This document shows, piece after piece, positions 20,561 to 47,133 of a stretch of DNA of 64,000 nucleotides (position 1 is the first letter of the stretch; each line of letters begins with the position of its first letter). Source of the DNA: Antedon mediterranea (taxonomy: Eukaryota; Echinodermata; Crinoidea; Comatulida; Antedonidae). The translations under genes were made by a program, and so were the position numbers. The stretch lies in contig NC_092675.1 of assembly GCF_964355755.1 (NCBI RefSeq), positions 30,032,912 through 30,096,911 of the forward strand, read 5' to 3'. Under the pieces are notes generated by a model that saw only the letters and a list, made by a program, of their open reading frames with translations, was not told where the DNA came from and did not search any database.

Positions 20561-20567
20561 TTAATTT

Positions 20568-23215: not shown

Positions 23216-24842
23216 TAGAAAAAATATATATATATTATTCTTAATAGTTGGCTTATTATATATTATTATACAATAAAAACACCACAATGTTTTTTATTGA
23301 CTTTATTAAACATATATATCATTATTTAGAACAGTTAAATTAAGTATCATCGATTTGCCATTTCGTTTAAAAGAACGTATCACATTCAATCTGTAAAAAA
23401 AGAGAATATATTACATAATATTAATAATGTAGGTTGTTATTTACGTCCGAGGAAAAGAAAACCTGTCGATCGAAACAATGACAATCAAAAATTACAAAAG
23501 AATGACAATCAAAGCGCACACGGCGTTCCATACAAATTACCGTTATTGAACTAGCGGCCGCTTTGGTTGGCGGGAGGCCGCTTCGACCGTAAATCCGTTA
23601 TCATACCAGGGAGGGAGTTGTAAACAACTCCCTGATCATACCTTCTTAATTAGTCAGCTCATCATAGCAGTTGGTGGGAAGGCCACGTCTGCCTTGTGCT
23701 CATGATACTGCTGTAGGTAGGAGGAGTACATCATCAGTCTACAGACCACTACAACAACCAATTTTGATGCAATACAAATACTACTGTAGTAGGGCCTATT
23801 TGTAAGTGTTTGTGATATGTTGCCTATTTATTTGAGTGAGGGATTTCATTATAATATTTTACCAGAGTAGTCATTTGGTAAGTTGGTTTTTTTGAAATCT
23901 ATTTTATTAATTAATTATTATTTAATTTTTTTGTACTATAATCTATGGTTGTAACTTGGTGTAGGCCTAAAGTTGATTTAAGTAGTATTTTGTTTTCTAA
24001 GTAGGAATGTATTCCCATTGTTGTATTTTCTCTCCTTTTTTTTGGTTTCCCTGGACCATGAAGAAATAAGTAACTTAAATAAAGAAATAAACTTATTCTC
24101 CATGCTTGGATGCATGCACCTTCTCAAGTTAAAGTGCCACTGATAAAAAAAAAGTGCAGTGCCAATACATTCATTATACTTCAATTATATTATTATAATC
24201 AGCAAGGATTTGTGGCACACTAAAGCGAATCAGACATAAGTTGGAATTTTCAAAATTAAGATGTTCACAAATACTAAAACTACATAATTCAAGATTTAAA
24301 ATACTGAAAAAAAATCTCTTGATACTATTTACTTCCAGAGAGAGATGTCACAGTCTAAAGTTTTGGTTGTTAAATTACAATCAGTTTTTTGAGTGTTTTT
24401 AACAGATAAATCACAAGTAAAAACAAAAAAACAGGGCGTTTTTATGTTTGCGCCTTGTTAAAGGGGTATACTAATTGTTGTTGTATTTCAATGAAACTTT
24501 GCACCTTTGTTCACTAACTAACTATTGTTCTATTATTATGCTCAATTTTTATTAAAAACAACCCATTGGAACATTTTCAATTTAAGCATAAAACATGATA
24601 GGTTTTATGAAAATCTTGCACATTTTCAAACCAACAGACAACACAAAATGTTAAAAATCCTGCATTTATTTGTCTAAAAATAGAAAAACATTAAGATAAT
24701 GTAAATAAGTACCTGTTTCAACTATCATTTTCCGTAAAAAGTAAAAGTAATTTTTCAGCCTTTTATTGTTTTCTACACTTTCTATGTAACACTAACAGTA
24801 ATGATTGTAAAACATGTTAACACACAGAATGGAAAAATCGCC
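23216..24842. other. intergenic, upstream of gene A
   Basis: No coding exon seen. A CG-rich fragment at 23553-23592 resembles the arms of the 20568-20999 inverted repeat. Candidate acceptors TTTTTCAG (ends 24758) and CACTAACAG (ends 24800) precede the first coding exon of gene A, so an untranslated exon probably lies further left. Confidence 0.4.
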
Positions 24843-27800
24843 ATGGCAGGACCACTGATGACATTTTCTATTCCAAAGGTTAAAAGATCACCAGGTAAAG
24901 CAATTGCTATGTTAATTAATAGAGCAGATTAGGAATGGAGTAAATGTTGATGTGAAATTTGATTAAAATTACAGAAGACGGTTCTCTATGGTGAAGTAAA
25001 AAATCAAGATTTAGTTGGAGAAGGTGGTGTGAAGAATGCTGTTTCATCTTTAGCAAATGGCAATTTAAATACAATGAGTAACAAAACAATGCAATACAAT
25101 CGATAATAGTTCTGTTATGTGCTTTAAGAAACAACGATATTTGTGGAATGTGTTATAACAGTTGTAAAGAATGGCAGAGGGGTAAAAATTAAACTTGCTT
25201 ATGTTTTTTCTTAAGGAGGCTGTAAAAATTTAGGACTCTTCTAAACACTAATTTTAAGGTATTGATTTTTCAGGTTGCAGATCTGATGTTCCACCGACTT
25301 CCAGGAACTATAAAGAAACTCTACAGACAATTCAAAGTTCATTTTTGGATTCAAATTACAAATTCGAAAAAGATTGCCATATCAACTCTATTGAACAAGT
25401 TGTGAATAAGAAGTTTGAGAAAACTTTCCAACAGAAAAGACAAGAAGTGAGATCTGATCTAAACTGCGTTAATGTGGGCGAACGGTTTGCCTTTGCAATT
25501 GTCGACTGCGAAGAAAAAGTCAAAGAAGTGTGTCGGGATGGAATTAATAGCGGCCATGAAAAATTGACCTATGCGACCTTGGGAAAACAAACATGTGGTG
25601 TTCATTTGTGGCAGAATGCTGATGTTGTTCTACGATCAGTTTCCAAAATCCCTAGAACATTACACCTTATTGTATACAAGGTAATAAGAATTTTACTTTG
25701 ACAGTAGGATACATTATTGGTGCATTTTTGTGGTACGGCAATATACCTGTCTAAAGTTTTCTAAAGTTTTTTAAAAACTTTTTTAGTAGACCCAGTTTAG
25801 TCCATTTTGTTTTACATTATTTCTTGATTTCCATTGTGTAAACATTACATATAATACTATAACATCAATGAGTTACAACAGCATTGGAATTTTAAGAAAA
25901 AAAATAACTTACTATGTAAGTTAAAAAAATGTTTTGCCAGGATTGAATGGAATTGTTAACAATAACTCATACAGTACTAGCACATAGAAAATAAAACATT
26001 GCAAGGTGCTGACTTGTTAACCTCTCCATTTTTAACCTGATTGATCAACATTTCTAATAATTGCTTTAGGTGATACGTGGCAGAGCAAAACTCATTTCTC
26101 CAAGTATTGATAGTGATGTTGAACCCACGCCTAACTTTGAATGCCATGTAAGCCGCGATTTTCCAAAAACTACAGCATCACTTGGCCAGTTAATTAATAC
26201 CACACAGGTGAGTACAGAAAGCATCCGTTTATTACTGTATTATTAAATGTAAAATTTTTAGAATATTATTCTGCATTAATCGTATTTTATCTATTGTTTT
26301 TCTATCCTCCTTAGATTTTTATCTATGAATACGACGAGGAATGCCTACCGGTTAAGCGTCCCAGACATTGTTATCCTTATGCGGTTGTTACTTTCTCCAA
26401 ACTAATACATTCGCAGAAGCACCAATTATTGCCATGCATTTCAGATGTTGAACAAGAGTCTATGCATTGGTCTTCAGATGATCTGATGTCCAGATATATG
26501 AATGACGAAGTGATTACTGATAACACAAAATTGAGTAAACCTTGTGAAAATAAATCACATAAAGTAGGCATTTTTCAATCAGAGCAGGATGCAATAGTGT
26601 TTAGATTAAAAGAGAAATTAGCAAAAAAAAAGATGGCTGTAGAATCAAGTTCTTGGAAAATGAAAAACAAATTACAGACAAACTCTTCATCCAGTTGTGA
26701 CAGATTTAAAATCAAAGCAAAAACAAACCAAACTATTAAAGATGCCAATGATAATGACAGTAAACAATTATCTAAAGCAAAAAAGCAGAAATTGATTGCA
26801 GCAAACGAAGAAGATATGAATTCAGTAAAAGGAAATAGTTTGCTTTCAAAGAATAGTACAGATGATGTTCACAGAAAGTCGCATTTAACCCAAAAAATTG
26901 AAAGCAATGAAGCATGTAATATGTATTTGGAACACCACACCTCCACATGCCTCAACAAACATCATTTATCTAGTGAGAATAAGAAAGATTACTCAAAGAT
27001 GAGAATTAAAGAAAATGCTGATAGAAGTGATTGCTTGCCGGAATCACAATCGATGATACCATTGTCCACCAGTTCCTCAGACATCACTGTCATTACATCT
27101 GGTGATAATCAAAGCTTGTCTCCAATGATAAAGAAATCATTTGTGCTAATTCGCTTCACACGAAAATGGCTGAAAAAATATGGCTGGGGAGTTCAGACTA
27201 TGACTAAAAAATTACTTTGCAATTGCATCAGAGTTCTCAAGTGGATTGAAGTGATGGGAGTGAGTTATCGAGATAAAGGAATGAATCATTTTAACTTTGG
27301 CATCTTAGATGCCCGTGTGCTTCTTTACTACTTATCGTTGCATCGTGGTAATTTTGGTAGAAAGATTCAGTTGGTGAATGAGGACATTGATCAGAAAGAA
27401 TTTAGACATATGATAGATGGTTTGTTACTGCTTTATAGATTTGAAAAAATGCCTGAAGATATGATTGTATTGGTTGAAAATTTAGTTGAAAATAGAAATT
27501 TGAGGGCTGAAACATCCAGGGTAGGGCTAAATGCTGATAAAAGCAAGAATACAGTGGTCCAAAACAGACAGAAGAGAGAAGACAACGCAGATGACGATAC
27601 AGATTTAGAAGCAGTATCAGGTTACCTGGGGGATCAAGCCTGTTCTGGTACAAATATAGATGAAATTAATCTGAAGGAATCAAGTGAACCCAAACCCACA
27701 TGCACTGATCCTCATCCTCATGCTTTCATCTCTGAAGATAAGATTGTAAAAATAATTCAAAATTTATCAAGTAGAAGAATTGAATGTAAACAGAATATCA

Positions 27801-30775
27801 CTTTGAATATTTATAATGTTTGTTCTGATTGTGGTATGAAGAACAATCAGACCATTATCATTGAGTCAGATGACAATGAAAGTGATGATTTGAAAATGGA
27901 GATTAGTGAAAAACCTTTACAACCCATTGAAGACCATTTAGATACTGGGGCCATGGAAACTGAGATGGCAGAAGTTCCTTTACAAACCAAAAATATACAT
28001 GTTCTTTCAACTGTTGCAGCCAGCGATTCTGATAATGAAGACCAATTAGAAGCCGAGTGTATGATCAAATTGAAGATGGCAGAAGTTCCTTTACAAACCA
28101 AAAATATGGATGTTCTTTCTAATGTTGCAGCCAGTGACTCTGGTATTGAAGACCATTTCGAGTCTGAGGCCATAATCAAATTGAAGATGGCAGAAGTTCC
28201 TTTACAAAGCAAAAATATGGCTGTTCTTTCAAAATTTGCAGCCAACGAGTCTGACATTGAAGACCATTTAGAGTCTGAGGCCTTAATCAAATTAAAGATG
28301 GCAGAAGTTCCTTTACAAACCAAAAATATGGCTGTTCTTTCAAATGTTGCAGCCAACGAGTCTGACATTGACGACCATTTAGAGTCTGAGGCCATGATCA
28401 AATTGAAGATGGCAGAAGTTCCTTTACAAACCAAAAATATGGATGTTCTTTCAAATGTTGCAACCAACGAGTCTGACATTGAAGACCATTTAGAGTCTGA
28501 GGCCATGATCAAATTGAAGATGGCAGAATTTCCTTTACAAACCAAAAATATGGCTATTCTTTCAAATGTTGCAGCCAATAAGTCTGTTATTGAAGACTAT
28601 GTTCTTTCTGACATTGAAGACAATTTAGAATCTGAGGCAATGATCAAATTGAAGAAGGCAGAAGTTCCTTTACAAACCCAAAATATGGATGTTCTTTTAA
28701 ATGTTGCAGCCAATGAGTCTGATAATGAAAACCATATTCTTTCAACTGTTGCAGCTAATGAGAATTGTATTAAAGACCATTCAGGAACTGAGGCCATAAA
28801 GATGGGAAAAAAGCCTTATCAAACCAAACATGTAGATGCAGGTCTTTCAGTTGAAGCCAACAAATCTGATATTGAAGACCATTTAGAATCCGAGGCCATG
28901 ATCAAATTGAAGATGACAGAAGTTCCTTTACAAACCAAAAATATGGCTGTTCTTTCAAATGTTTCAGCCAATGAGTCTGCTATTGAAGACAATGTTCTTT
29001 CAAATGTTGCAGCCAATGAGTCTGACATTGAAGACCATTTAGAGTCTGAGGTCTTGATCAAATTAAAGATGGGAGAAGTTCCTATACAAACCAAAAATAT
29101 GGATGTTCTTTCAAATGTTGCAGCCAATGAGTCTGATATTGAAGACCATGTTCTTTCAACTGTGGCAGCCAATGAGAATGGTATTGAAGACCATTCAGGA
29201 ACTGAGGCCATGATTAAATTGAAGATGGCAGAAGTTCCTTTACAAACCAAAAATATGGATGTTATTTCAAATGTTGCAGCCAATGAGTCTGTTATTGAAG
29301 ACCATGTTCTTTCAAATGTGGCAGCCAATGAGTTTGACATTGAAGACCAATTAGAAACTGAGTGTATGATTAAATTGAAGATGGCAGATGTTCCTCTGCA
29401 AACCAAAAATATGGATGTTCTTTCAACTATTGCAGCCAATAAGTCTGACATTGATAGGGCATGTTTTTCAAATGTTATAGAGAATGAAGAAAAACCTCCA
29501 AAAGATGTGAACAATATCGAAGATGCATTGGAAACTGTGATGGTAAACAGGGCTTTGCGAATGAAATGTGCAGTGAACCTTCTAAAACTTAAAGAGATTA
29601 ATCTGGAAAATGGAGGTAATGATAAAGAACCCTCTCTCCTTCCTTCATCTTTGGCAAAAACAACTAGAAAATGTGCAAAGAACATTTCAAGACTTAAAGA
29701 AATTGATGTGGACAATGGAGTTAATGATAAAGAACCCTCTCTTCTTCCTTCATCTTTGGAAATAACAACTAGAAAATGTGCAAAGAACATCTCAAGACCT
29801 AAAGAAATTGATGTGGACAATGGAGTTAATGATAAAGAACACTCTCTTCTTCCTTCATCTTTGGCAAAAACAACTAGAAAATGTGCAAAGAACATTTCAA
29901 GACTTCCAGAAATTGATGTGGACAATGGAGTTAATGATAAAAAACCCTCTCTTCTTCCTTCATCTTTGGCAAAAACAATTGGAAAATGTACAGTGAACCT
30001 TTCAAGACTTGAGGATATTGATCTGGACAATAGAGTTCCTTCATCTTTGACAATAACAACTAGCAACCCTGACAAATGTAGTTCACAAGATTTAATTACA
30101 ACCCCTGCCAAGGGAGTTAAGCTGAAGAATAGTACTGCTATTTTTGAAGAACATGCTTATGACAAGTTAAAGAAAACCTTTGTATCAAGAGATCATAAAG
30201 GTACTAATCGTACTAAGCAGACAATTAGTTCTAATGAAACCAATAGAGCAGATAACACCATGTCAGATAACATTTTTCAGGAGTCAAATAATACTTCCAG
30301 TGTTGCTCGTCGTTTTCTACTTAGTAATGGAGACAAACATTCAAATGATATCAAGATAGTAGGTTGCCGACAATTAAGTAAATACAATTGCACTACCCAT
30401 TCTTCTAACATAAATAGTGGCCATAACGAGTCTGATTTTGAAAAAAGCAGGTTGATTATGGAGACGTTTTCAAAATATAACATCAATCGAAAACGCACAA
30501 GAAGTACAACTTCTATATCAAACTCTCCTCCGGTCAAGAGGTGCAGAGATGTGCCACCTAGAAGAAATTCAGAAAGATATGACACTTTGGATAGTACTCC
30601 GTATATGGCCTATCGCTCGCCACATGGAAGACGGTCAAGTGCTAACAACGTTAGGCCTATGTATCCAGAATATGTTGAGAATAATCGAAACATTAATCGG
30701 GCAGCAGACGACAGTCCGAGAGAAAGGGTAACAGACTCCAGAAGAAGTTATTGGTGGAATAATCTACTTGAATGA
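24843..30775 (+). CDS. gene A: TASOR/TEX15-family DUF3715 protein, 4 coding exons, 1685 aa
   Basis: Exons 24843-24894, 25274-25680, 26070-26207, 26315-30775; phases 1, 0, 0. Residues ~35-230 match the DUF3715 (TASOR pseudo-PARP) domain: GERFAFAIVD (~86), LGKQTCGVHLW, LIVYKVIRGRAKL, TPNFECHVS (~173), IYEYDEE and RPRHCYPYAVV (~215). In vertebrates this fold is shared by TASOR, TASOR2 and TEX15, which silence transposons and other repeats in the nucleus. Residues ~475-600 form a conserved-looking helical block of unknown role. IIIESDDNESDD (~713) looks like a SUMO-interacting motif. Then come 12 degenerate 37-aa repeats (~747-1248), five 35-aa repeats (~1282-1450) and a basic Arg/Ser-rich tail with a final RRSYWWNN. 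No catalytic or membrane motif. The ATG is chosen because exon 1 mirrors that of gene B. The symbol is left open because TEX15 and TASOR cannot be separated by eye. Confidence 0.88.
27958..29460 (+). repeat. 111-bp coding minisatellite in gene A (12 copies of a 37-aa unit)
   Basis: The unit is MAEVPLQTKN, M(D/A)VLSNVAAN, ESDIEDHLES, EAMIKLK. Twelve VPLQTKN-type copies were counted, one strongly diverged (KKPYQTKHVD). Some units contain an extra VLSNVAANES-IEDH half. All indels keep frame. The composition is acidic and probably disordered. Long open frames on the minus strand here are shadows. Confidence 0.92.
29560..30065 (+). repeat. 105-bp coding minisatellite in gene A (5 copies of a 35-aa unit)
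   Basis: The unit is KCAKNISRLK, EIDVDNGVND, KEPSLLPSSL, AKTTR. The three central copies are nearly identical; the outer two are diverged, and the last lacks part of the middle. Frame is kept throughout. Confidence 0.92.
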
Positions 30776-31745
30776 GTGAGACAAAGACGAAGAAATGATG
30801 AATACTCGCAAGCTATTTATTATAACCATAATAATTGTTAATGATTTATTATTATTCATTTGTGCTTTCTGGTTGTTTTACACTTTTATTGAAAACGATA
30901 CCTAAAGATCATGCTAGTGTACTGTTGGTTGTTATTTTAAGTTTTGCATTGTAATTCTCTGCCTTTTTTTTGTTTTTCTTCTTTTTTTTAAACTTTCATT
31001 CACTAATTAGTAGAATCATTTGTTACTTTGGTATTCTAATTTGTTTTAATCATATTTGTATGATGTCAATGCTCCTCAGATCGTCAACATGCAAACAGTT
31101 GATGAGAACAACTAAATAAGTATAAGAATGACGTCATTAGCATTTAGCTTCAGGACTAATTATTTATTTTAATTTATTTTACTGTATTTCTAACAAAATC
31201 ATAATCATAGTACATTTAATACTAAAGACTATAACGATCGTTGTATTTTAAATCTCCTTTCATCTTGAATTCTAACTAAACTTTTGTAAATTTAAAAAGT
31301 GTTATACAGTTAGGTATTAATTTGATAATTGTTTGATAATTAAGATTAACATCATTTAATGGTTTAATTTTTAAACAGTTGATAGGAAAAAGTATTTTAT
31401 TTTAATATTAATGATTAAAATTATGTACAGTATAAACAAATATTGATTTGTGACACTGTATCTAAGATGTACTGTAGGCCTATTAGTAATCAGATGCAGC
31501 TTTTTGTAAAGCAATTTTTATTTTTATATTATAAATTCAGGTTAAATAATGTATACAATTTTCCATTTTCAATCACGTATATTAGCAATCAAACGTGTGT
31601 AAAAATGATGTGTACAGTATAGCAATTTTACCAAATCTTACATTATAACACATGTAGGTACACATTGTTAATGACTCTCTTATTTTGTACATACAGCAGT
31701 GTTTTTAAATTATTGAAGTTTTGTTGAAATAAATATTTAAATACA
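30776..31745 (+). other. gene A 3' UTR with poly(A) signal at 31728-31733
   Basis: AT-rich, no ORF. AATAAA at 31728-31733 followed by TG-rich sequence (TGTATATGTGTGTG near 31777) is a good cleavage-signal arrangement, giving a 3' UTR of about 970 nt. Confidence 0.6.
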
Positions 31746-31859
31746 GTAGATGTTGATTGTGTATTACCCACATATGTATATGTGTGTGTATTCATATTTA
31801 TTCAGTTTTTATATTTTTTTAATAACTTATTATATTTTTGTTTTATTTATTTTTTACTT

Positions 31860-32040
31860 TTTTTTACTTCGTGATGTTCTTGATTCACTTCAAAGGGGAG
31901 GTGACTTTGAATCAATGTAGCTTGATGTCTGGTTTCAAATGGCGCCAGTGTCACAGGATTTATTGACATATTAATAATTAAAACTTCACTCCCAAAGACT
32001 TTGTTTATATGTGGAGCAACTTGTGGTACACAGTACAAAA
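31860..32040 (+). mobile_element. decayed tRNA-derived SINE, copy 1
   Basis: The body CTTCACTCCCAAAGACTTTG TTTAT...GAGCAACTTGTG matches the copy at 57765. The B-box-like TCTGGTTTCAAATGGC is degenerate. No ORF. Confidence 0.5.
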
Positions 32041-32045
32041 ACGTC

Positions 32046-32920
32046 GTATGAATAAAATACGAATGACTAAACTTAATTTGACTTCTAGTCTATGACTCCA
32101 TTTATAACATTTTCGATCTTTAGGCCTACCCCTCAGTATACCACGATTAAACGTTTACAATTTCTGTCTAACGCATACTGTTTTATACCGTTTAGTGTGT
32201 ATGTATTATTTTTACAAGAGCAATACTTATACATCGTATATTTCTACGGTATACGTGTTTATATGCAGCAGCAGGTACAGTGTGTATAGTTCAGAGACCA
32301 AGTTTGATTCCGGGTGAATAAATAATTGCATACAAGGATACGTGGGTGTCGAAAGACACTTTGATATTCCAAATAAGGAAATCGTTACAACATATTCATG
32401 GTAAAGACGATGATGTCATTTTAATTTCATTTTAAAATATTTATGTGATGAGATCATAATCACCACGACAGGCCTATATAGGCTATGGTAGCTACTTTCA
32501 TAGATAGTCCTACACATGGAGGTATAAAAGTATAACTCCATGGTCCTACACGTATAAAAACCCAGTTGTCTGAAAGCTTTCAATTTGTGAACGGCATGAA
32601 GTAAAGTAAGTTGATGTGTGTTACCACCCTCTTTTTAAGATCAAATAATTTTGTTCAGTTTCATGGTTAATTTTCCTTTTTGTATACGGACGTGCCATTA
32701 TTGTTTTGCTTTGGGATATTTTGTTCGCGTTTTTTAGGATACCTGTCGCTTCAGCACGGGTATTGGTGATAATATCACTACATTTTTCATAAACACTCCT
32801 TTCCGAACTTTAAGGACAAGCTGGAGACGACGGTCACAGAGCCTATCAAGAGAAAATTGTTCTAGGGCTGCAGTGTACGAATAGTACCCCTTCCCGTAGT
32901 ACAATTCTTAAAACCCTCTT
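32046..32920. other. intergenic, no gene recognised
   Basis: No exon-like segment was found. The sequence is AT-rich with isolated TAGGCCTA words. Confidence 0.3.
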
Positions 32921-33960
32921 CTAGACCGATTCGAGGTCACAGCCTAATTCGGAAGTCAGGGAGGAGTGCCAGGAAGGATAAGCATATTCAATTATGGGGC
33001 ATATGAAAGATTTATAAATCTTGATTAACTGATCTTCTGGTGCACCAAATCTTGTAGGGACCGACACAATATTATACATGGCTTTGGCCTTGCTAACGAT
33101 CTCACCAATGTGTGTATCCCACTTAAGGTTATCTTTGATAGTTAAACCTAAAAGCGTCAATTGCATAACAGTCTCAACTTGAACTCCATTATTAGTCAGT
33201 AAATTATAGTAACCAGAAGTTTTGCAAAAAGTTAATCTTCACTGATTTACACTTATTATAGCCTAGGGTTAAGGGCCATTTTATTTATTTTACACCATTC
33301 CTCTAAATTACTAAAGTACGATTGGATAGAGTCCAGACAGTTATTTTTTGAGATATCAGCGAATTAGGTAATTAAATCGTCGACAAATTTCCACCTTGTA
33401 ATGCAATATAATGCCGATCGAGTCATTGACCATTACTCGAAAAAGGCTTGGGCCAGATTTCGTTCCTTGTGGACACCACAATGTACTAGAAATAATAGTA
33501 TTCATACTCATAAGACTAGATCCTCCTTACCACTTACCAAATTAACATTAATGCAACTTAATATCCGTTATAGTGGCACCAAATTATTTAATGATTTCCC
33601 TGACGAAATTAAAAATGGCACCTTCAAAACAAATATTTCTTTTAAACTTAAACGAATTCTACTCCATAAATAACTAATAATAATAAATAACAAAATAAAA
33701 TATATTTATTCTAGTTTTCAGTGCGCTTCCATAGTATTTTGATATTATTACATTGTCGTTGTTTTGCTTTACTTGTTTGTTTGTCTGTCCTGTCACTTTG
33801 TTTCTGTTTGTTCAAACTTCAATATGACCTTTAACTTGCTACCCGTCACGTTTTTTGAAGGGTGACCTTCAAAAGTTATTACTCCCTGGGTTTTGCCACT
33901 TGATTATTTATATTAAGTTGTTATTTTGTTTACAGAGAAAGAAATAAATGTTATTAGCCT
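32921..33960. pseudogene. LINE remnant with inverted 5' part (twin-priming-like) or two abutting LINE fragments
   Basis: On the minus strand, from about 33400 down to 32925, a broken reverse-transcriptase frame reads WKFVDDLIT, a stop, DSIQSYFSNLEEWCKINKMA, then LGLTIKDNLKWDTHIGEIVS and YKSFICPIIEYAYPSWHSS. FVDD is the RT catalytic box. On the plus strand, 33401-33673 reads an ORF2 C-terminus (HTHKTRSSLPLTKLTLMQLN, IRYSGTKLFNDFPDEIKNG). The two halves face away from a junction near 33395. Stops and frame breaks show it is dead. Confidence 0.75.
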
Positions 33961-34604
33961 AAGAATGAATGTTAATTCGATATGTCATGTAGACAGCAGA
34001 ATGGAGAGAAGATAACCTTTTGTTGGAAATTAATTAAAACGGCGTAAGAAGCTCGGATTAATAAAAGATTAAATGACCATTTAGTCACGTTGCTCTTTTT
34101 ATCATTTTCAATAAAATTTTACTACGAACTTATGAGGCCACCCAAGGTCGCACTAACATTTTTTTCAGTTATAATAAGTAGTTCCCTTTATTATTAACCA
34201 AAAATTCTAAAAGTGTACTCGTTGATAATTATATCATAGCAGTAAATTGGTATTGAATTAAGAATATTACTCTTATCTTGTTAAATACAATGTAATATCA
34301 TGTTCTATACTTTGAATTGTTACTCTCACCATCGATAAAAAAAATAAACTGTGTTTCTAATAATATTACTTAATAAAATGATTGATAATTGAAATTAATT
34401 TCGTTGTTCCTTGGTCAAACTTTCACGGATCACTGATTTTGACCAAAAAGAAAGAGTCACTGATGACCAATGAGCTTGGCTTAATTACTGATGACTCAGC
34501 AAATTTGCATTAACAAAGAGGTACAAAACCTGAAAACTGTCTGCAATTGCGACACAAGGAAAAATAACTTGTGATGTGAATCTCTTTAGTTGTTGTCTCA
34601 GAGA

Positions 34605-34925
34605 TAGAATATGAATCCGATATCGAGGAAGGCGCCAACCAAGGTCATGCGATATCAAAGGTCAGGGTAAAATTTCAAAAATGCTCCGACTTTTTACTCC
34701 ATGCTGATCAGAGAGGTATTTACACCTCCCTGCTCCAATCAAGCTGAAACTAAGGTATAGTTTTCAAACTTGGTGGGTGCCACTCCCGGTGCCACTCGGT
34801 ATAAGAAAAACGAGTTAATAGGTCGTCAAGGTCAAATCTCAAAATGATAGGGTGAGTATGAATCTGATCGCCACCAAAGGTCATGCGATGTCAGAGGTCA
34901 AGTAACTTTTCAAAATTGCTTCGAT
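34605..34925 (+). repeat. diverged local duplication
   Basis: TATGAATCCGATATCGAGG with AAGGTCATGCGATATCAAAG (about 34609-34664) recurs as TATGAATCTGATCGCCACC with AAGGTCATGCGATGTCAGAG (about 34857-34898). The spacing is about 245 bp. Non-coding. Confidence 0.55.
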
Positions 34926-34960
34926 CAAGCTGGAACTCTTCATCATTAGTATTTCATTTA

Positions 34961-35920
34961 TGGAACTGTCACACCAAAATCAGTCCGGGCCAAAATCGGT
35001 CCGGCGGACCAGTTTTGGCTGCCAAAATCAGTCCGGTGGACCATTTATGGCTACCAAAACCTGTCCGGCCGGACCAATTTTGGCCGCCAAAACTGGTCCG
35101 GCCGGACCAATTTTGGCCGCCAAAACTGGTCCGGCCTGGATAAAATCGGTCCGGGTAGTAGGACTGTTTTTTGCCGCCAAATATGGTCCGGTCTAACAAA
35201 TATATGGTGTGCAAAATGAGTCATAATGTATATCATTAAAAAAAGGCCATGATTAGTCATTATATTGAAAACTACGGGGTTTTATTTGTTATTTTAATAT
35301 TATAAATTAAGCCTGTTTTTTTATTATCATTATTAGTAGTAACTCATCAATAATTAGTAGGCCTACTAATTGTTAGGCTTTTTGTATACAATATGTATCT
35401 CTGTCTGTTTTTAATCCATTTTGTTCTTTTTTAACATCTTCGTTTCCCCATGATGTTAAAAACAATTTAATTTATTAATTTTTTATGGTTAATCAATCAA
35501 TATATCAATTCAATACAATTATTATAAAACAATTATCCAATATTGATTAGGCTGAGGAAGGAAAAAGGCCTCAATCATAAATAAAATCTAGCTGGCAATT
35601 TTTATCAGCGTCTCATACCCGTTCGTGTGAGCGTGCAGGCCGAAATATGAGTGAACACCTAAGTCATGTTTTTAGATAAAATACATTTATTTATAGTATT
35701 TATCCGACAAGATAACTTACTAATATATATCATGGGATATTTTTCTAGCCATAAACAACTTAAAACAGCATCATAGGCCTAGTAATTCAATTAAAATCGA
35801 CAGAAGAAAAGCCCGGACCGATTTTGGCAGTGGCGGACTGCTTTTGGCCACAATTTTAGAGCCAAAACTGGTCCGGCCGGACCGATTTTGGCCCCGGACC
35901 ATATTTATCGTGACAGAGCC
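34961..35920. mobile_element. foldback-type DNA element with GGTCCGGCCGGACC subterminal repeats
   Basis: CTGTCAC at 34966-34972 is matched by GTGACAG at 35910-35916. Inside, both ends carry the same inverted series: CCAAAATCGGTCCGG, GGACCAGTTTTGGC and GGTCCGGCCGGACC. The left end has about five such boxes, the right end about four. The AT-rich middle of roughly 600 bp has no transposase. GGGCTCTGTCAC-type ends suggest a non-autonomous cut-and-paste element; the superfamily is uncertain. Confidence 0.75.
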
Positions 35921-38560
35921 CTAGTTATTGTTTTATATCATAAATGTATTACCAATTACATTTTATAATAATCTATTTTATAAAATATAGTCCTAATAAT
36001 TTAATTTCAATTAGGGCCTACACTTTTTTTTTTAACAATGTACTTAGGCCTATTGTATTTAGCCTACGTATGAACCACGATTTATGAACACCTGCCTCAT
36101 TGTCTTGCTTTTGTTCTCTATATAGGCCTATTGTTATTATATTGCGGAAATGGGAAGTAGACCCTGACGGTTATCTAACCTTGAGGTCACGAGGTCATGG
36201 GAATGGTCAATGTTTATATAACTAAATCTTTTCATTTGATATTTTATTAGTATTTACTGTTGTTTTTTAAAATATTATTTTCAGTTTCTCAGTAGGCCTA
36301 TTACTATTGTCAATTTATAGTTATTACTACTAATTTGGTTGTATATCTCAGTTATACCATGGAGTCCCATACCGACTACGACAGCGATCGTGTCGGTGGG
36401 TTAATTATTATTTTCTATTGTTTGTTGTATATAGGCTATATATATTTATTTTAAGAACGCATTGTGCATGAACGTGTTTCACCGTTGTAAAGGTGTAGCT
36501 TCAATACATATTATTATTATTATAGCCTCTCTTCTCCCAGAAGTGCTTTGGGGTTTGCGCATGACTAGTCCGAGTTTCTAAATATCCATTTTCCAACCAT
36601 TTTACCCGCTTGATACAGTTTCTCAATGCGTCTCCGGCGTCCCCTGCTTCATAAGTTAACTTCCTAAAGGCGCAGCGCGGAAAAAATATTTACACATCAA
36701 TAATATACTGTACATACAATTTAATTGAATATGATTAATACTAAAAATCAATCAATATAATTGTAATAATTATATCGAAGTCATTATTTTTTTTATTTGG
36801 GCAAATAACTTCATTAAAACTAAAACGTCTATTTAAAGATTTGCTTTATTTATATTTAGGGACAAAACAACAAACATTGATTACATTACGCAGGTACTTC
36901 TGCTTCTGTAATTAGATAATTTTGATTTAAATTGTTATTATTGATTTATTATTTATCGATGATCAAGAAAGAAATGAATTTCAAATACTGTAGTACAGTA
37001 ATTAAATAAATAGGCATCTCCAATATTAACAATATTGACTTAGCGCCCTCTGTTGGGGAAAAACCCTTGTTTTGTACATCATCACCACGCCGCGCCTGAT
37101 TTCTGTTGTGTGCGCGGACGACGGGGGAGAGAGAGGAAGGTGACTTCTTGTGTCTTGTTCCTGAGAAAACGGGGGTGTTTTTGGCAAGACATAGGCCTAC
37201 AGTACGTACACGAGGAACAATTAGCTTGTTTAATCTTTCATTAAAGTGTGACAGTTTATCTTATAATCTGAACACAATGATGATGTTTGATTTTTAAAAG
37301 TAAGGATCATTCAATCTTCTTAGCCCACTTTTTGCCGCGGAAAGATTTAACATAAATAACATTCACACAAAAGGAGGCACCGTTATGATGTGACATGTCT
37401 GCAAGCAGAAACAATGGACGACGATCATAAGAAGAATAGAAGTTTCTAGATCGAGTAAATGAAGTAGTTTACAATACGTCTTCAGAAAACCACAAGAATG
37501 CAGCCAGTCACTGTGTTCGTTACAATTCACGAGGTTCACACACTACATACTACATTAGTCATTATAGAGAGGCCAATTCCTTCATACAATTATTCGAGCT
37601 GCAGAGTCACATGTCCAAAGAATTTTAATTAGTTTTTCAACAAGGTTAAATTCATACTGCATTATTTAGTAGCAGGTCAACTGTTTTATTCAAGAATTCA
37701 GCGCTTTGAAACCTTTGTCTCTTGCGCTTTATATGTTATTTATTATTTATTATTATTAATTCAGTCAGGGACTTTTCATACTCATATAGGGCCTCGGTGT
37801 TTTTGCTGCAAAAAAAATAATTGGTTATCAACCGTGTGAATAAATTAACCAAATTTCTTGGCAGCCACAATTTTCAGTAACCGGTTAAATGGAAGTCTGA
37901 AAATAATGGTTAAAAAAACCCAATCGATTCTGTGTTTAAGTAATTAGTGCTGTGTAACACAAAATAATGGTTTTGATTAACAGCAGTCAACTACACTGCA
38001 ATAACGTGCAGAGCCCATTGCATTTTGGGTAATACCACTGATTTCCATTGACGACCACCCACTGATTTAAATGGTTATTTAGAAGCAAGAGGTGAAAGAA
38101 AAGACCCATATTAAAACATGCTACAGTATTACAAGGCTATAAAATAGAAGGAAATTGCCTGGAAATGGAAGTACTGTGATTCATATACAGAGAGTTAATA
38201 TCCCATTTTGGCTCCGATGATTTATTCAAGTCGATTGAAGGTAAACCGTGTAAAATCAGCCGAAATGATTGTGCAGTTCAAAATGGATCACCGTGTTAAT
38301 AGATTAAAACTTGGTTTTCAGTTTTAACCATGACAGTCACAAGTTGAGTATCAGTTAAGTCTTAAAGCGTCCACTAAGCAGTGATGTAGCCACAAGAAAT
38401 AAAGTGGTCCGGTTTTCGCAAGAAAAGAGAACAATCTCTGTTCAAGCCACTGAGTTGTCAAAGACTTCTGTAAAAAAGTGATCAGACTGAAAGGTGTAGG
38501 ATTGGTTATAGCATGAAAATTGTACTGTGAGAATAAGGAAGAACAAGAAAAATTCTCTCA
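35921..38560. other. intergenic, no gene recognised
   Basis: No exon with family similarity. A CG-richer block at about 37040-37190 (GCCGCGCC, GTGCGCGGACGACGGGGG) has promoter-like composition and could belong to an untranslated exon; the short frames through it resemble nothing known. Elsewhere there are scattered TAGGCCTA words. Confidence 0.35.
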
Positions 38561-38569
38561 AAAGCATCA

Positions 38570-40225
38570 TAGTGGTAGTGATCAGTGTCAAGCATCAGTT
38601 CAGCCTTACTTTATTCCAGTGGTGGTGTCAAGAATTAGTGCAGTCTTATCATGTCAGATTGGGAGGGTCAAGCATCAGTTTAGTCTTAACACATAGACAT
38701 AGAAGTGGTCTAACAAATCACAATGGCAGTTCTGAGCATAACTTCGGAACACATCAAGTTGGTGATGTCAAACATTAGTTCAGTCTTAACTTATCACAGT
38801 GGAAGTGTCAACATGAGTTCAGCCTTATCACATCACAGTGCAGGTGTCAGTTGAGCATCAGTTCAGTCTTTAAACATTACAATGACGGTGTTGTGCATCA
38901 GTCCACACATCATGGTGGTGTATGAAGCTTTAGCTCAGTATTATTGCATCACAGTGGTGTTATCAAGAATTAGTTCAGTCTTAAACTATGAGGGAAGTGT
39001 CAAGAATCATGGTGGCGTATCAAGCATTAGTTCAGTCTTTAAACATCACACTGGCGATGTTGAGCATCAGTCCATGCATCAAGGTGGTGGTGTCCAGAAT
39101 TAGTTCAGTCTTAATGTATCATGAGGGAATTGTTGAACATCAGTTCAGTCCTAAACGCTGTTTTCCTGTCGATGTTAGTCGACGCTATCCATTGAAGTTT
39201 TAACGATTTACAGGAAAAGGACTAACGACGACACAAAACTTCGGCAATTTAAAGGAAACTACGTAATAATTAATGATCGTTGACAATCGCGAGAGTGGAA
39301 TCCAGTTTTATTCTAGCGATATCGCAACGTTAAAACGCAAGAACTGACCAATCATCTTGGCGATACAGTACATCACATAATTGATGGAAAAATCCCGCTG
39401 ACTACATTTATTTTTATTACATCGCAGCGCAGTCAAGGCTAGGCCTAGCGAAAGTGACTATAAAATGATTAAATGAGGAAAGTAGGCATGGTATTAGGTA
39501 GGTCTAAGTCTTCAGCCTACTCCAAAATGCTACTGAGAACAAAGAACCATCAGTATAGAGATAGTAAGAAGACAGGAGTTTCGAATCTAACGTTCAACGC
39601 TAGAAATCAAATGTTCATGCTATCGTTATTCTTTCAACTTGATCGTTTTCAAACGATCGTCGTTGAACTTTTAACGATCATTGATAATAACGTCAACAGG
39701 AAATCAGGCATAACATACCACGAGGGAAAAAGAATTTGTTCAATCTTACGTATCATGAGGGAAATGTCAAGCATCAGTTCAGCCTTTAAACATCACAATG
39801 GCGATGTTGAGCATCAGTCCATGCATCATGGTGGTGGTGTCAAGCATTCATTCAGTCTTAATGTATCATGAAGGAAATGTCGAACATCAGTTAAGCCCTA
39901 ACATACCACGAGGGGAGTGTCAAGCATTAGTTCAGTTTTAGGAAAATTTCAAGCATCAGTTTAGCCTTTAAACATCACACGGCGATGTTGAGCATCAGTC
40001 CATGCATCATGGTGGTGGTATCGAGCATTAGTTGCATTAGTTCAGTCTTAATGTATCATGAGGGAAGCGTCAAGCATCAGTTCAGTCTTCAAACATTACA
40101 ATGGCGATGTTGAACATCAGTCCATGCATCATGATGGTGGTATCAAGCATTTATTCAGTCTTAATGTATCATGAAGGAAATATCTAGCATCGGTTAGTCC
40201 TAACATATCATGAGGGAAATGTCTA
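38570..40225 (+). repeat. degenerate minisatellite (GCATCAGTTCAGTCTTAA units) with an insertion
   Basis: Some twenty diverged units contain TCAAGCATCAGTTCAGTCTT and TATCATGAGGGAAATGTC; a longer period of about 110-170 bp adds ACATCACAATGGCGATGTTG and CATCATGGTGGTGGTGTC. The array is interrupted at about 39163-39715 by unrelated sequence. No ORF of note. Confidence 0.8.
39163..39715. mobile_element. putative DNA element inserted in the minisatellite
   Basis: The block has no minisatellite units and begins TTTTCCTGTCGATGTTA; its right end, reversed, reads ATTTCCTGTTGACGTTA. GAAGTTTTAACGAT near the left end and GAACTTTTAACGATCA near the right are further internal relatives. No coding capacity. 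The target duplication is not clear. Confidence 0.45.
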
Positions 40226-41500
40226 TATAGTGGAGGTCAAAAAGCATCAAGATAGAGGGGTTATAAATGCATGGTACATGCCCTGGAGAAAAATTTACCT
40301 GCCATCACAGCTGGTCAGGTGTTTGCTAGGACCTACGTCATCTGAATCTGAAATCCACCAAAACTATGTTAAGGAATCAATGATGAACAGAGGCGTAGGC
40401 TGGGTTGCTGTCAAGGTTGCAAAAATTGTAAAATTCAGGCCAAGAGGCCTAAAAAAGTGGACTTTTTTGGGGGGTGTAGCCGATAAATTACCATCATTAC
40501 CTACTGTCACAAATCGAAAGCTCCACATTACAGCCAGCCTCACTGGTTTTCTCAGAGCATTATATCAGCAGTAAGGCAGTAAGAACATTCCTCGTTTTGC
40601 ATATCCATGTTTCAAGCATTAGCAATCTATTCAATGTAAACAGAAATGAATATCATCATTTTTGGCCAATACCACACCTGACTAGACCTGGATGCATGAG
40701 GTTGAAATAATTGTGCTCTGTTTTACTTGACTGAACCTCCTACAGTACAAGAAGCACTTATTTTTCTGCCCATGTTGCCATCAGTATTCTAAAGCTTACT
40801 ACACCAGATACCAAATACTGTAACAAGGATTATAAAAACAGATACCATTCGATTTACTGTGTTATATGTTTTTTGGTTTGATAATACTCATCCTCCATTG
40901 GGGAACACTGGAGTAACTCCAGACACGGCCGGGTTTTTTGGTGGAAATTTGGATTACAGTAGGCCCTCTACAGACACACATCAGCCAGAGGTGCAACGCT
41001 AACCCAGATCAGCACACGAAAAGTACTCTTTGCGAACACTATGTACCATGCTCTTATTTAGGGACCAACGGCTTTATGTCCCATCTGAACGGGGAAAAAG
41101 AGGCAATGAGTGTAAAGCATCTTGCCTAAAGGATACAATCAGTATGGTGTACAAAGTGACTTGAACCTATCACATGGTAGGCTATTGCGCCATCATTCTC
41201 TGGTCTATACTGTACATCATCTGATACTATATTGGCAGATGGTCTCCCATCCAAGAACACAACTGGACCAATGTAGCTTAACTTTAGTGATCTGACGAGA
41301 ACCAGTGTTTCAACGCAGTATGGCCATATAAGCGATAATCTAGATTAGATGTGGTTACCGTCTTGTCTATAATCTAATCCCATTTGGTCCCGGGGTAGAT
41401 CAACTATTTTAGATTTTGATTCCTTTTTTGTTTCTGTCGGCAAGCTAAATGAAAAGAAAAATTTAGATTTTCAGAATACAGTACCAGTTTATGTTCCCCA
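40226..41500. other. intergenic with a short unassigned ORF and a dispersed repeat
   Basis: A 114-codon plus frame at 40230-40574 has no recognisable domain and is probably chance. At 41064-41140 lies GGACCAACGGCTTTATGTCC followed by CTAAAGGATACAATCAG, a dispersed repeat shared with 56229-56310 and, inverted, with 600-800. Confidence 0.45.
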
Positions 41501-41502
41501 AT

Positions 41503-42412
41503 GCAGTATCGGCTTACTTGCGTGATGCACTACTAGCGTGACCATGCTTGATACTGTGGTTGAATATTCAAGGCAGTATCAGCTTACTTGCGTGATGCAC
41601 TACTAGCGTGACCATGCTTGATACTGTGGTTGAATATTCAAGGCAGTATCAGCTTACTTGCGTGATGCACTACTAGCGTGACCATGCTTGATACTGTGGT
41701 TGAATATTCAAGGCAGTATCAGCTTACTTGCGTGATGCACTACTAGCGTGACCATGCTTGATACTGTGGTTGAATATTCAAGGCAGTATCAGCTTACTTG
41801 CGTGATGCACTACTAGCGTGACCATGCTTGATACTGTGGTTGAATATTCAAGGCAGTATCAGCTTACTTGCGTGATGCACTACTAGCGTGACCATGCTTG
41901 ATACTGTGGTTGAATATTCAAGGCAGTATCAGCTTACTTGCGTGATGCACTACTAGCGTGACCATGCTTGATACTGTGGTTGAATATTCAAGGCAGTATC
42001 AGCTTACTTGCGTGATGCACTACTAGCGTGACCATGCTTGATACTGTGGTTGAATATTCAAGGCAGTATCAGCTTACTTGCGTGATGCACTACTAGCGTG
42101 ACCATGCTTGATACTGTGGTTGAATATTCAAGGCAGTATCAGCTTACTTGCGTGATGCACTACTAGCGTGACCATGCTTGATACTGTGGTTGAATATTCA
42201 AGGCAGTATCGGCTTACTTGCGTGATGCACTACTAGCGTGACCATGCTTGATACTGTGGTTGAATATTCAAGGCAGTATCAGCTTACTTGCGTGATGCAC
42301 TACTAGCGTGACCATGCTTGATACTGTGGTTGAATATTCAAGGCAGTATCAGCTTACTTGCGTGATGCACTACTAGCGTGACCATGCTTGATACTGTGGT
42401 TGAATATTCAAG
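41503..42412 (+). repeat. homogeneous 70-bp satellite, 13 copies, upstream of gene B
   Basis: Thirteen head-to-tail 70-bp units start at 41503, 41573, 41643 and so on to 42343. The unit is GCAGTATCAGCTTACTTGCG, TGATGCACTACTAGCGTGAC, CATGCTTGATACTGTGGTTG, AATATTCAAG. The only differences I see are CGGCTT for CAGCTT in units 1 and 11. AGTATCA and TGATACT in each unit form a 7-bp inverted repeat. The array ends about 170 bp before the acceptor of gene B's first coding exon. Confidence 0.97.
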
Positions 42413-42599
42413 GCTTTAACAAAACCAATATGCCTACTGTGATATAATGTAATGTGTATTTGTAGAATTAGTTGGTTTGGCTTGAATTTATGATGATCAT
42501 TGTTTTGGTTATTTTCATCATCCATTGTTTCTAGATTTGTGTGTAGTTTCATTAGATTACATGCTATTTAATTGTTTTTACAGGAATTTTGGGGTCACC

Positions 42600-45500
42600 A
42601 TGTCACAACCAAAAAAGGTCTACTTGATTCCAAAATTACCTAATGAAGGTAAGATGTATTTTATGTTGCATCAAGATAACAGTAACATGACTGATCATGA
42701 CATGTAAAGATTTGTTATGAAAAGTAAGGATAAAAGCATTTCGCCAGCCAAGGTTTGTTAGCATGCTCAACAATGGCTTATTGTCAGCAGAGACATAGGA
42801 ACCTGAATAAAAAAGTTACAGTAATGTGGTTCAGTATAATGGCTACCCCTGCTACCCCCATGATTAATCACTCCTTTATTTTTTAGGCTGCAAGAATACA
42901 ATTCAACCAGGAACTCGCACTTATCAAGAAATATTGCAGTCTATAAAAGATGCATATTTCGAATCAAGTTATGTGTTTGAAGATAACTGGACTATCTCAT
43001 CTGTTGATCAAGTTATTAACCAGGATTTTGAGAAATTATATCAAGACAAACGGCAGGAATTAAGATCAGAACTAAAGAGCAGTGATGTTGGTGAACGATT
43101 TGCATTTGCAATTGTTGGCAGTGAAGAGAAGGCAAATGATGCATGCAAAAATGGAGTCTTCAGTGGTCATGAGATGTTGACCTCTATGACCTTAGGCAAA
43201 CGAACTGATGGTGTTCATGTGTGGCTGTATTCAGACATACCTCTGAAATGGGCTACCAAAAATATTTTGAAAGCCTACCTAATTGTGTATAAGGTAATGC
43301 TTTACTGTAAAACCTAATTTCCACTTAGTAAAGGTGGCAGTGAAAAACTGAGTGATTACCTTAATACCATAATTGCTATGACATACTTTGGTAACCCATT
43401 GCAAATTTAAAGTTTCAGTGCTTGCATGTAGACAATAGATAACATTTGGTGCCTTTTTAAAGCAGATTTTTCAATGATACTTTTACAATTGTTTTAATGC
43501 AAACAAGCTTTCAGATGTTAATGCATGAATGATGAAATGGAAGATATTTTGAATTATAAATCTTCTCATCTGATTATTTATTGACAGGTAATGCGAGGAC
43601 GAGCAAAATTGGTGAAACCAACCGTAAACAGTAATATCGATCCAACACCAAACTTTGAATGTCATGTAAGCCATGTAACAAAAACTGCAAACTTTGGCAA
43701 GTTGGTAAATTCCAGCCAGGTAATGATAACATTGGCTCTTGAAAAGATCTTTTAGGCTTTATGCAAAAACCATCTAATATCTCCACATTGGCACGCATAA
43801 TGGCTGCATGAGTGTGTCTGACTGAATTTCACAATCATCAGCCTAATGTTGTTTTGTAAAGTAAAACATTGAACTTCCTAATTTAAAAAAAAGTTTTATT
43901 CTCATTTGTCCATATTGTAGATGTTCATTTATGAGTATGACGATGAGGCTTTACCCAGCAAGCATCCTAGGCATTGCTATCCGTATGCAGTAGTCAAATG
44001 CACAAGAATTCACAACGATGCACTTCCTTGGAGCAAAAAGAAAGTTGCTTCAGAAGAAGGAAAAAGTAAATTAGTACGTTTGATGGAAGTGGATACACTT
44101 CCACCAACAAAAGTTGTCAGGTCTAAAAGTAAAAAGAAAGTTACTTTCAAGGAATCTGTGAATACACTTCCATTGAAAAAGGTCTCTGGACCCAAAGGCA
44201 AAAAAAAAGTTGTTTTGAAAGAAGAGAAATGTACATCAATACTTAAGAAGGAGTCTGTGATCAAGGAGTCTGTGACTGGAGAGACCGTTACCGGGGAGTC
44301 TGTGACTGAGGAGTCTGTGACTGAACAACCAAATAAATTGGTGTCATTTATTGTTCTAGATGAGTATCATTGTGAAAACTGTAACTCAAATCAAACGTCC
44401 GATGAAGAAGAAACTAATTCCACAAATCAGATCAAATCAGATTCCAAGAAAACTGAAAATTGTCAACTGAAAAGAAATATAAATGAAAGAGGAAAGAAAA
44501 AGGCATATGCTGGAAAACTAGTCCGTAGAAAAAAACGTGATCGTTGGAGAAAAAATTACAAAAAGATTGGTAGATCGTTTATTAACGCACAGCCAAAGAA
44601 AGATTCCGATTTTGGACTTGCTGCTGAATATTCCAAATTATGTAATGAAAAGTTGTTACAAAATACAAAAAAGCAAGCTGTAAAAGAGAAGATGTTGCCT
44701 AGTCCAACAGAAGTAAAAAATGAACCTGTTGTTCACACTGGAATTAATGGTTTTAACCGGACTAATGAATTGATAATTCAAAATGGATCAAGTAATAATA
44801 GCAAAATACAGCATGTTTTCGAATACAACCATTCAGGAATTGCACATCCTGTATCTTCAAATGTTGATTATACTTCCAACAACCAATTAAAGACTGAATC
44901 TCCACAAGATGTTTTACCTGGATCTGCAGGAGTAAATCATCAGAATTGTAACACTTTTTCTCAATCAATTCCTACCTTGGTTATACCAGCAAGTCCACCT
45001 AATCAAATCAGTGATTTAGAAGATAAAACTGTTCCGCTGAACCAATCATTTGATTCCAACCAGAATGCAATGAGGCCAGCAGTTTCTTACAAAAATGGTG
45101 CCTATTCTCCATCCCAATCTATTTTAGATTATAGTGTTCAAGGGGATAACCAATCATTTGATTCCAACCAGAATGTGATGAGGCCAGCAGTTTCTTTCCA
45201 AAATGGTGCCTATTCTCCATCCCAATCTATTTTAGATTATAGTATTCAAGAGGATAATCGGGAAGTTATGGACATGGATGTTAGTAGTCCAGAACCAAAT
45301 GTGCCAATTCGACGTGCTGACACATTTTTGCAAAACAGTGTTTCTAATACAGCTGGATGTATTAACAAATGTTTTAAAGACACAATTGCTGAATATAATG
45401 TTTATGAAGATGAGAATAAGCAATTACATGTGTCACCTGTGAAAAAGACAAAAAAAATAAATAATTTTCATGGAAAGACATTTTTAACTAAAGAAGATCA

Positions 45501-47133
45501 TTTTGAAATACCTGTAGAGACACCAAATGGGTATACCAAACCTCCTGACCCTCGTCAGATGCTCTATCGCCCTCAGAAGGTGTCAGATTTGATTGTTCTA
45601 CAGTGGTCGTCGAAAGTTTGTAATAACGAAGTTCCCAATGTATCCGAAAAGAAAACCAATTTTGATTGTCCAGACAAAAGAAAAGAAGTCAAAACATCAG
45701 ATGTATCACCTAATTTGCAGTCAAACACAAGTTGTGTAAAGCTTGAATATGGTCAAGTTTCTGTAATTAAACACACCGCATTACAGACAATGTTGACAAT
45801 GAATCAAGAAATATTAAAGAAATCGGATAAAAATCATCAGACATGTATTGAAAAAAAGAATGTATTGGCATCAACACAGATGAATGGTCATTTACAACTA
45901 TCAACAACATTTACTGATGTTGTTAGAAAGCAAGAAGGGCTACAAGGTCATGACCCCAAACTGAAGAACAAGCAAATTGAAGCCTCAACACAGACAGATA
46001 ATTCACAAAATGATTACCTACAAACTAAGTTTATTTATAAAGACGACCTCTTGCGTATTATAGTAAATTTAGAGGAAAGTACAATCTCTGCAAATTTCCT
46101 GTTTGAATTGTTTGAGCGCAATGGAATAGTTTGTTCTTCTACTAACATGATGTCAAATTTGTTAGAGAACGATCAAAATATGAAGGAGAGGAGGAAGACT
46201 AACGAATTAAAAGAGAATGAAGATTCAGTTGATTACAACTTATTGTCAACTGTATCGCATGACAATGATCCATGTCAAACTACACAATCTGAAGTTAATT
46301 ATAAATGTGAAGATGTAGCTAATAAAAAGGAGATCATAACGGAAGAAGACCACCAAAATGACGATGCTGCTTGCTTTCACATTCCAACAACCGTAACAAA
46401 ATGTTCAAATCCTTCTATACAGATAGATGTAGCAAAAACCATTGACCATTGTCCTGCAATAATAACGACCAGAAATGAAGATCCAGTGCAGAACTTGTGC
46501 AAAGGTGAAGTTTCTTACTTGGATGCTGGGAGTGAGGTCAATTCATTGGCCATGGATACTGACCTTTCCATAAATAATGCTAATCAGAAAGATAGAATGG
46601 ACAAAAACCCATTTAAAAGATTCCCCGAAGACTTACAAGGAGTAAATCCAAATCTCATTGAACATCCTCATGAGGAAGAACATTTCGGTAAAAGAAGAAG
46701 AGGACGTGGAAAGCGACGACATTCTTCCAAAGACGGTGGTGTTATCAACAAAGATGATTTAAGACATCAGATTAATGAAGGTCGAAAGCACAGATTATCG
46801 GGTGACTCTTCAAAGTCTCCTGCTAAAAGCTCAAATATCAGTTCAGATAAAACTGATACTGATACTTTACACAATGTAGTAAAGCGCTTTAGAAGAGAGT
46901 CATCTAGTTACATGTGTAATAATAACGAGCATTTGCAAAATCATAGTCGCATTGGTACAAAAAGTTACGAAGATTACAGACACAGAGACCCATTTGAGAA
47001 CCAAACATGGCATCATCAAAATAAGTATGATGATAGGTGGGTTGAACGATGGCCGCCAAGGTATTTGAATGGTACGTATGTGCAATATGAAGATTATTGG
47101 AAGTGGTATCATTACTATTCACAATGGCCCTGA
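42600..47133 (+). CDS. gene B: TASOR/TEX15-family DUF3715 protein, 4 coding exons, 1266 aa
   Basis: Exons 42600-42648, 42887-43293, 43588-43719, 43921-47133. Exon 2 is 407 nt, exactly as in gene A, and the three intron phases are the same. An acceptor at 42583 puts an untranslated exon upstream. Residues ~35-225 are the DUF3715 domain: GERFAFAIVG (~85), LGKRTDGVHVW, LIVYKVMRGRAKL, TPNFECHVS, IYEYDDEALPSKHPRHCYPY. The rest is long, polar and probably disordered: Lys-rich repeats with ESVTGESVTEESV (~300-340), FIVLDEYHCEN (~340), a perfect two-copy 35-aa repeat (NQSFDSNQN.MRPAVS, ~570-640), a basic KRRRGRGKRRHSSK patch (~1120) and a Trp/Tyr-rich end. Beyond the N-terminal domain there is little visible similarity to gene A. 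Inferred role: nuclear silencing factor of the TASOR/TEX15 kind. AATAAA lies at 47326-47331. Confidence 0.88.
45040..45255 (+). repeat. two-copy 105-bp coding duplication in gene B
   Basis: NQSFDSNQNAMRPAVSYKNG AYSPSQSILDYSVQGD is followed at once by the same 35 residues with four or five changes. It is a recent in-frame duplication in the disordered region. Confidence 0.9.

Follow-up and report, generated by a model that had tools for sequence, protein, structure and literature searches.

A tandem pair of DUF3715 genes with long, dissimilar tails in the crinoid Antedon mediterranea

Here we report that a 64,000-nt stretch of the Antedon mediterranea genome (C6:30032912-30096911; the whole stretch is called the window below, and positions in it are counted from its first base) holds two neighbouring genes, A and B, each encoding a DUF3715 domain followed by a very long tail. 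The tandem pair, proposed in an earlier note made from the letters of this DNA, is real and well defined. We lean, with modest confidence, towards reading A and B as paralogues standing off the TASOR-like line, which would carry a silencing domain on tails that serve as different tethers.

Two genes of one build

Gene A (24843-30775, 1685 aa) and gene B (42600-47133, 1266 aa) both lie on the + strand and are alike in exon layout and phases. The first exon of A (24843..24894) has 52 nt, or 17 codons from the ATG plus one base, and that of B (42600..42648) has 49 nt, or 16 codons from the ATG plus one base; both end in phase 1. Exon 2, of 407 nt in each gene (25274..25680 in A, 42887..43293 in B), encodes the main part of DUF3715, a domain related to poly(ADP-ribose) polymerase (PARP) and classed as a pseudo-PARP domain. 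Exon 3 follows with 138 nt in A (26070..26207), where it encodes the portion of the domain with TPNFECHVS, and with 132 nt in B (43588..43719). Each gene then closes with a giant exon: in A it spans 26315..30775 (4461 nt including the stop, 1486 codons), holding the end of DUF3715 (IFIYEYDEECLPVKRPRHCYPYAVV) and a tail of ~1,460 codons, and in B it spans 43921..47133 (3213 nt including the stop, 1070 codons), with the end of DUF3715 (MFIYEYDDEALPSKHPRHCYPYAVV) and a tail of ~1,040 codons. Both genes have the last intron in common, as well as the opening 25 codons of the giant exon; all internal exon edges are GT/AG, and the reading frames are open throughout. A 9-codon upstream open frame (24829-24858) runs over the ATG of gene A in a different frame.

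The outer coordinates that the earlier note gave for the two genes proved exact, and its exon plan (exon number, phases, the 407-nt second exon, a third exon of 138 or 132 nt, one giant last exon) was borne out. Its first exon of about 17 codons holds for A and is one codon too long for B; the phase is right for both. The peptides it quoted (GERFAFAIV, TPNFECHVS and RPRHCYPYAVV/HPRHCYPYAVV) are found in the translations.

BLASTP aligns the N-terminal residues of A and B at 117/229 identical positions (51%, 262 bits, E 6e-75) and finds only two further pieces elsewhere, at E 1.2 and 8.9. At the DNA level, clear matches are confined to exons 2 (E 2e-23) and 3 (E 3e-7); the next best is a 22-nt piece inside the last exons (E 0.026), and all others have E >= 0.09. 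A chance likeness was rejected; in a shuffle test, the score of the domain was reached by 0 of 200 shuffles. The two genes were also ruled out as alleles: they lie on one contig and one strand, with ATGs 17.8 kb apart and synonymous differences between their domains at 0.70 of sites.

The DUF3715 identity named in the earlier note is secure. A search of both N termini with the PF12509 profile gave 78.7 bits for A (E 6.1e-22) and 76.9 bits for B (E 2.2e-21), well above the curated cut-off of 28.5 bits. In a PDB search made with the N terminus of A alone, residues 23-227 matched residues 7-208 of the 214-residue chain of human TASOR (6tl1, E 9.5e-25), the only other match being a chance one. Identity to 6tl1 over aligned residues is 63/195 for A and 54/193 for B.

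In human TASOR, a long, dynamic loop of 14 residues (Tyr303-His316) lies between the last two strands, and the Y305A change in it abolishes reporter repression, LINE-1 control and histone H3 lysine 9 trimethylation (H3K9me3) at TASOR-regulated sites (PMC7532188). Both A and B have the extended beta8-beta9 loop, running from YEY to PRH over 15 residues versus 14 in TASOR and in a further DUF3715 gene of this genome, on contig C9, and both retain the tyrosine aligned to Tyr305, in the YEY at the loop start. The positions of the catalytic triad, H-Y-E in PARP, are L-Y-Q in TASOR, and the third is S in TEX15 (VLS) (PMC7955679). In our reading of the alignment, A and B have A-H-Q at the TASOR L-Y-Q positions, the third being Q as in TASOR (TTQ/SSQ in A/B, LTQ in TASOR); because of these residues, an active ADP-ribosyltransferase is unlikely in either protein.

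A constrained domain and repetitive tails

Past the domain, A and B share little, as the earlier note had remarked. The tails align no better than shuffled sequences, and BLASTP finds nothing between them below E 1. With the repeat blocks of A excluded, 4 of 200 shuffles scored at least as high as the best local alignment of residues 231-745 of A (515 residues) with tail B, and 12 of 200 did so for the remaining 265 residues of tail A outside the repeats; the same test gave none for the domain. Residues about 468-603 of tail A have no other match in the genome (354 Mb in 18 contigs, searched here and below).

Much of tail A is made up of in-frame repeats. Those at 27925..29476 (+) are spaced 37 to 52 aa apart and share a 30-codon core present 12 times, and a 35-aa repeat follows at 29564..30037 (+), with 4.5 copies by Tandem Repeats Finder (TRF), or five units of which the last is incomplete. 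Tail B has two copies of a 36-aa repeat at 45040..45257 (+). The period is a multiple of three in 10 of 10 TRF rows within the two last exons, so the frame is kept, and in 14 of 40 rows elsewhere in the window, some of which may lie in exons of other genes; the rows overlap.

We compared the proportions of non-synonymous (pN) and synonymous (pS) differences in the two parts of the proteins. Between the domains of A and B, pN is 0.280 and pS 0.703, giving pN/pS 0.40 (bootstrap 0.32-0.49); this pS is near saturation and the true ratio is probably lower still. Among the 30-codon cores of tail A the ratio is 1.12 for 12 cores (bootstrap 0.66-2.11), 1.20 for 11 and 1.09 for 8. The 35-aa repeats give 1.59 (0.62-6.45) with four of the five units and 1.44 (0.82-4.13) with all five over 21 codons, and in tail B 1 synonymous and 5 non-synonymous changes separate the two copies of 36 aa. 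As controls, the 12 cores read in five wrong frames gave 0.94-1.25, and a non-coding array read in one frame gave 0.97 (6 units, 15 codons, nearly invariant). Since wrong frames give such values, a ratio of about 1.1 is the level expected without constraint. These figures fit a domain under constraint joined to a tail free of it, in a contrast that is not like for like, as it sets paralogues beside repeat copies that may exchange sequence. Of the conserved domain and fast-evolving tails that the earlier note had claimed, the constraint on the domain thus stands, and the repeats of tail A are without detectable constraint; positive selection is not shown, a ratio near 1 in these repeats being equally compatible with its action and with an absence of constraint. 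The arms race that the earlier note had considered possible is compatible with these data, and the missing constraint in the repeats is its one support.

Two other accounts of the tails bear on this picture. Repeats with a pN/pS of about 1 might be expected of decaying pseudogenes, and one or both copies might also owe their form to misassembly. We reject this account: last exons of 1486 and 1070 codons run without stop or frameshift, splice sites are intact in both genes, the domain is constrained at the ratio given above, and the periods of the tail repeats preserve the frame. A and B are probably functional. Rather unlikely, in our estimate, is that the tails are non-homologous, one gene having gained a new end after the duplication, with common function limited to the domain. 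It would explain the absence of detectable likeness between tails attached to domains that are 51% identical; yet both tails lie in the same exon, given the shared last intron and first 25 codons, and repeat expansion without constraint could wipe out similarity between tails of common descent.

Place of the pair among DUF3715 genes

The genome holds at least three DUF3715 genes. This number is a lower bound because the PF12509 search of the genome, in which 3 candidates were scored and 1 match was listed (contig C9, E 1.5e-4), passed over the window's own A and B exons, and absence from such searches says little. A protein search listed 8 places, 6 of them exons of A and B; the remaining two, on C9 (E 0.12) and on contig C7 (E 0.64), are weak and are backed otherwise, the former by the profile and the latter by blastn. 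The C9 gene lies near 8.99 Mb, and its joined exons match DUF3715 at E 2e-17.

Over about 100 columns, A and B are identical at 57/100 positions (57%) and human TASOR and the C9 gene at 44/97 (45%). A and B match TASOR at 35/101 (35%) and 32/99 (32%) and the C9 gene at 38/96 (40%) and 34/94 (36%), respectively. In an unrooted tree of these four sequences, A and B were joined in 100 of 100 bootstraps. A, B and the C9 gene agree in codon and phase for the intron directly before the YEY loop; the intron preceding that one differs in position by three codons between the pair and C9, and an extra intron before GVYVS in the C9 gene has no counterpart in A and B. Because the position before YEY is the same, the giant last exon of A and B starts at an intron site common to C9, and it is plausible that it arose by loss of downstream introns. 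Pfam found no SPOC domain in the C9 gene, where some exons look SPOC-like by eye only, and a PDB search with its putative SPOC-DomI stretches gave 0 matches. Between two of its DUF3715 exons (L001:8328-9114) we noted by eye a tandem array with a 24-base period and several open frames.

The duplicate pair proposed in the earlier note is supported by the 51% domain identity, the equal exon plan and the grouping of A with B, and the tandem duplication appears to be old and to have taken place outside the TASOR line. Unless the root lies within the pair, they would have duplicated after the split from the line of C9 and TASOR. True TASOR orthology of A and B appears rather unlikely because human TASOR groups with a separate gene, that on C9 (in an unrooted tree of four sequences). 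Human TASOR (6tl1) shares with A and B the pseudo-PARP domain, the long beta8-beta9 loop with the Tyr305 position and the lack of an H-Y-E triad; it differs in its SPOC, DomI, DomII and PIN domains, which were not recognised in A and B (a weak test), and A and B differ in turn by their giant single last exon. The C9 gene likewise has DUF3715 and the intron before YEY in common with the pair, and is set apart by its greater closeness to TASOR and by the two intron differences described above.

Two other placements have to be weighed against a pair outside the TASOR line; they and the alternatives above are partly compatible with one another. A and B could be duplicates of the TASOR gene made within their own lineage, having lost SPOC-DomI and evolved so fast that they only seem to stand outside. 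The intron before YEY, exactly common to C9, and the Q at the third triad position speak for this, but TASOR and C9 are closer to each other than either is to A or B, and we regard such an origin as tenable though improbable. Unlikely, and somewhat more so, is an origin as invertebrate counterparts of TEX15: the A/B line and vertebrate TEX15 would descend from one non-TASOR branch of DUF3715, and vertebrates would have gained the TEX15 domain later. In the TEX15 gene, the domain is likewise followed by one giant exon, a build that A and B resemble. They also stand apart from C9 and TASOR, and the split of the domain between TEX15 and TASOR is described as ancient in a paper that treats the evolution of DUF3715 (PMC10578480). 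Vertebrate TEX15, which acts in silencing directed by PIWI-interacting RNA (piRNA), has DUF3715 and then a very long tail (PMC10578480), as A and B do, but differs from them in its TEX15 domain and in the S at the third triad position. The profile of that domain, PF15326, was not listed at E <= 1 in either last exon, and its search of the genome gave one place, at E 1.63, below the cut-off; TTQ/SSQ at the third position is TASOR-like and not the VLS of TEX15. On these two grounds the label "TEX15-type" in the earlier note is not supported. TEX15 is, moreover, reported from vertebrates only, with TASOR-like proteins throughout metazoa (PMC10578480), and is given an early vertebrate origin (PMC7618676); positive selection is reported on primate TEX15 (PMC12994711).

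Possible role and genomic setting

We suggest that a DUF3715 gene first parted from the TASOR-like line, represented here by the C9 gene, and then duplicated into the intact tandem of A and B. Each protein would begin with a PARP-like (DUF3715/RDTS) domain that is catalytically dead and continue as a long tail, probably disordered for the most part. Judged from the domain, its role would most likely be the one it has in TASOR and TEX15, where it provides an effector step in the chromatin-based silencing of transposons directed by RNA, and A and B would then be located at chromatin. The differing tails may serve as tethers to distinct partners or targets, so that A and B would be two adapters for one effector domain, dividing the work. 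In LINE1 silencing, TASOR still works when its DUF3715 domain is exchanged for the one of human or zebrafish TEX15 (PMC10578480), and the DUF3715 domain of TASOR is reported to be dispensable for assembly and chromatin localisation of the HUSH complex (PMC7532188). Nuclear silencing machinery may be at hand in this genome: Piwi-domain exons gave 21 matches, spread over five loci (Argonaute and PIWI not separated), and we found MORC S5 domain matches on two contigs and two weak exon matches to C5 DNA methylase on contig C4 (E 2.7e-4 and 9.5e-4).

Several observations weigh against this reading of A and B as silencing adapters off the TASOR-like line. The tree comprises four sequences, unrooted, with ~97 columns for C9 and without a TEX15 or TASOR2 sequence. 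Pfam found no domain over the cut-off in either tail, neither SPOC nor TEX15; a missing SPOC is weak evidence, as Pfam also found none in the SPOC-like stretches of C9. Structure prediction for residues about 401-664 of tail A was unusable (mean predicted local distance difference test score 33.3, with 0 of 264 residues at or above 50). Periphilin-type Lge1 was sought in the genome and gave three places, the best at E 0.16 and none over the cut-off.

To a further idea we give very little credence, namely that the pair both polices and is policed by the same machinery, silencing its own last exons while its tails run an arms race with transposons. In human cells, TASOR-dependent H3K9me3 covers exons for repetitive, often fast-evolving polypeptides (PMC7532188), and HUSH targets long intronless transcripts with a bias to A-richness (PMC8770142). 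Autoregulation, in which the genes would titrate their own silencing activity, is conceivable because the repetitive, uninterrupted last exons of A and B (4.5 and 3.2 kb) resemble those exons. The absence of any excess of A in them counts against it: their A content is 36.5% in A and 37.8% in B, where 37.3 and 37.9% are expected from protein and intron composition, and of the 25 stretches of 1.5 kb listed as richest in A, none falls in them in the sense direction.

The match on contig C7 is an 87-base piece of gene B exon 2 (C7:6653700-6653786; 82/87 bases identical, plus a 13-base gap, by blastn). A DNA search with this exon returned only the shard and B itself, and as it also left out exon 2 of A, it detects close copies only. 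The shard lies ~1.9 kb from an integrase open frame (rve, E 5.2e-15), between a left flank with similar places on C7, C1 and C9 and a right flank formed by a 258-base tandem repeat. Within the idea given very little credence above, this shard near a retroelement could even be a source of small RNA against gene B. A scan for viral contigs found 13 stretches fitting a pattern, with 0 confirmed.

A 70-bp tandem array (41499..42414; 13.1 copies, 99% matches) ends 0.2 kb upstream of the exon with the ATG of gene B, and a genome search with three of its units found this array only (7 overlapping matches; very common words skipped). Another array, at 21376-22066, with a period of about 70 bp and 9.6 copies, lies 2.8 kb upstream of gene A, and its unit looks unlike that of the array before gene B. 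Also before gene A, 3.8 kb upstream, is a near-perfect, foldback-element-like hairpin (20560-21007) with arms of about 216 nt (97-99% complementary) and an 18-nt loop. Between the genes, at 32921-33673, two opposite-strand open stretches resemble, by eye, the C-terminal region of the reverse transcriptase of a non-long-terminal-repeat retrotransposon; Pfam gave no match for them. Elsewhere in the window we noted a gelsolin-repeat exon at 6821-7294 (+; E 5.5e-13), which we take to be Sec24-like, and a weak EF-hand match, below the cut-off, at 15590-16117 (+).

Our literature search found neither a functional study of an invertebrate DUF3715 protein nor a paper on a tandem DUF3715 pair. A and B are further members of a known family, of unusual build, rather than a new kind of system. 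The presence of one TASOR-like gene and a separate, long-tailed tandem pair suggests that DUF3715 duplicated here independently of vertebrate TASOR and TASOR2, and the pair is a natural case in which to test what part of such a protein is constrained, the domain, and what part is free, the tail.

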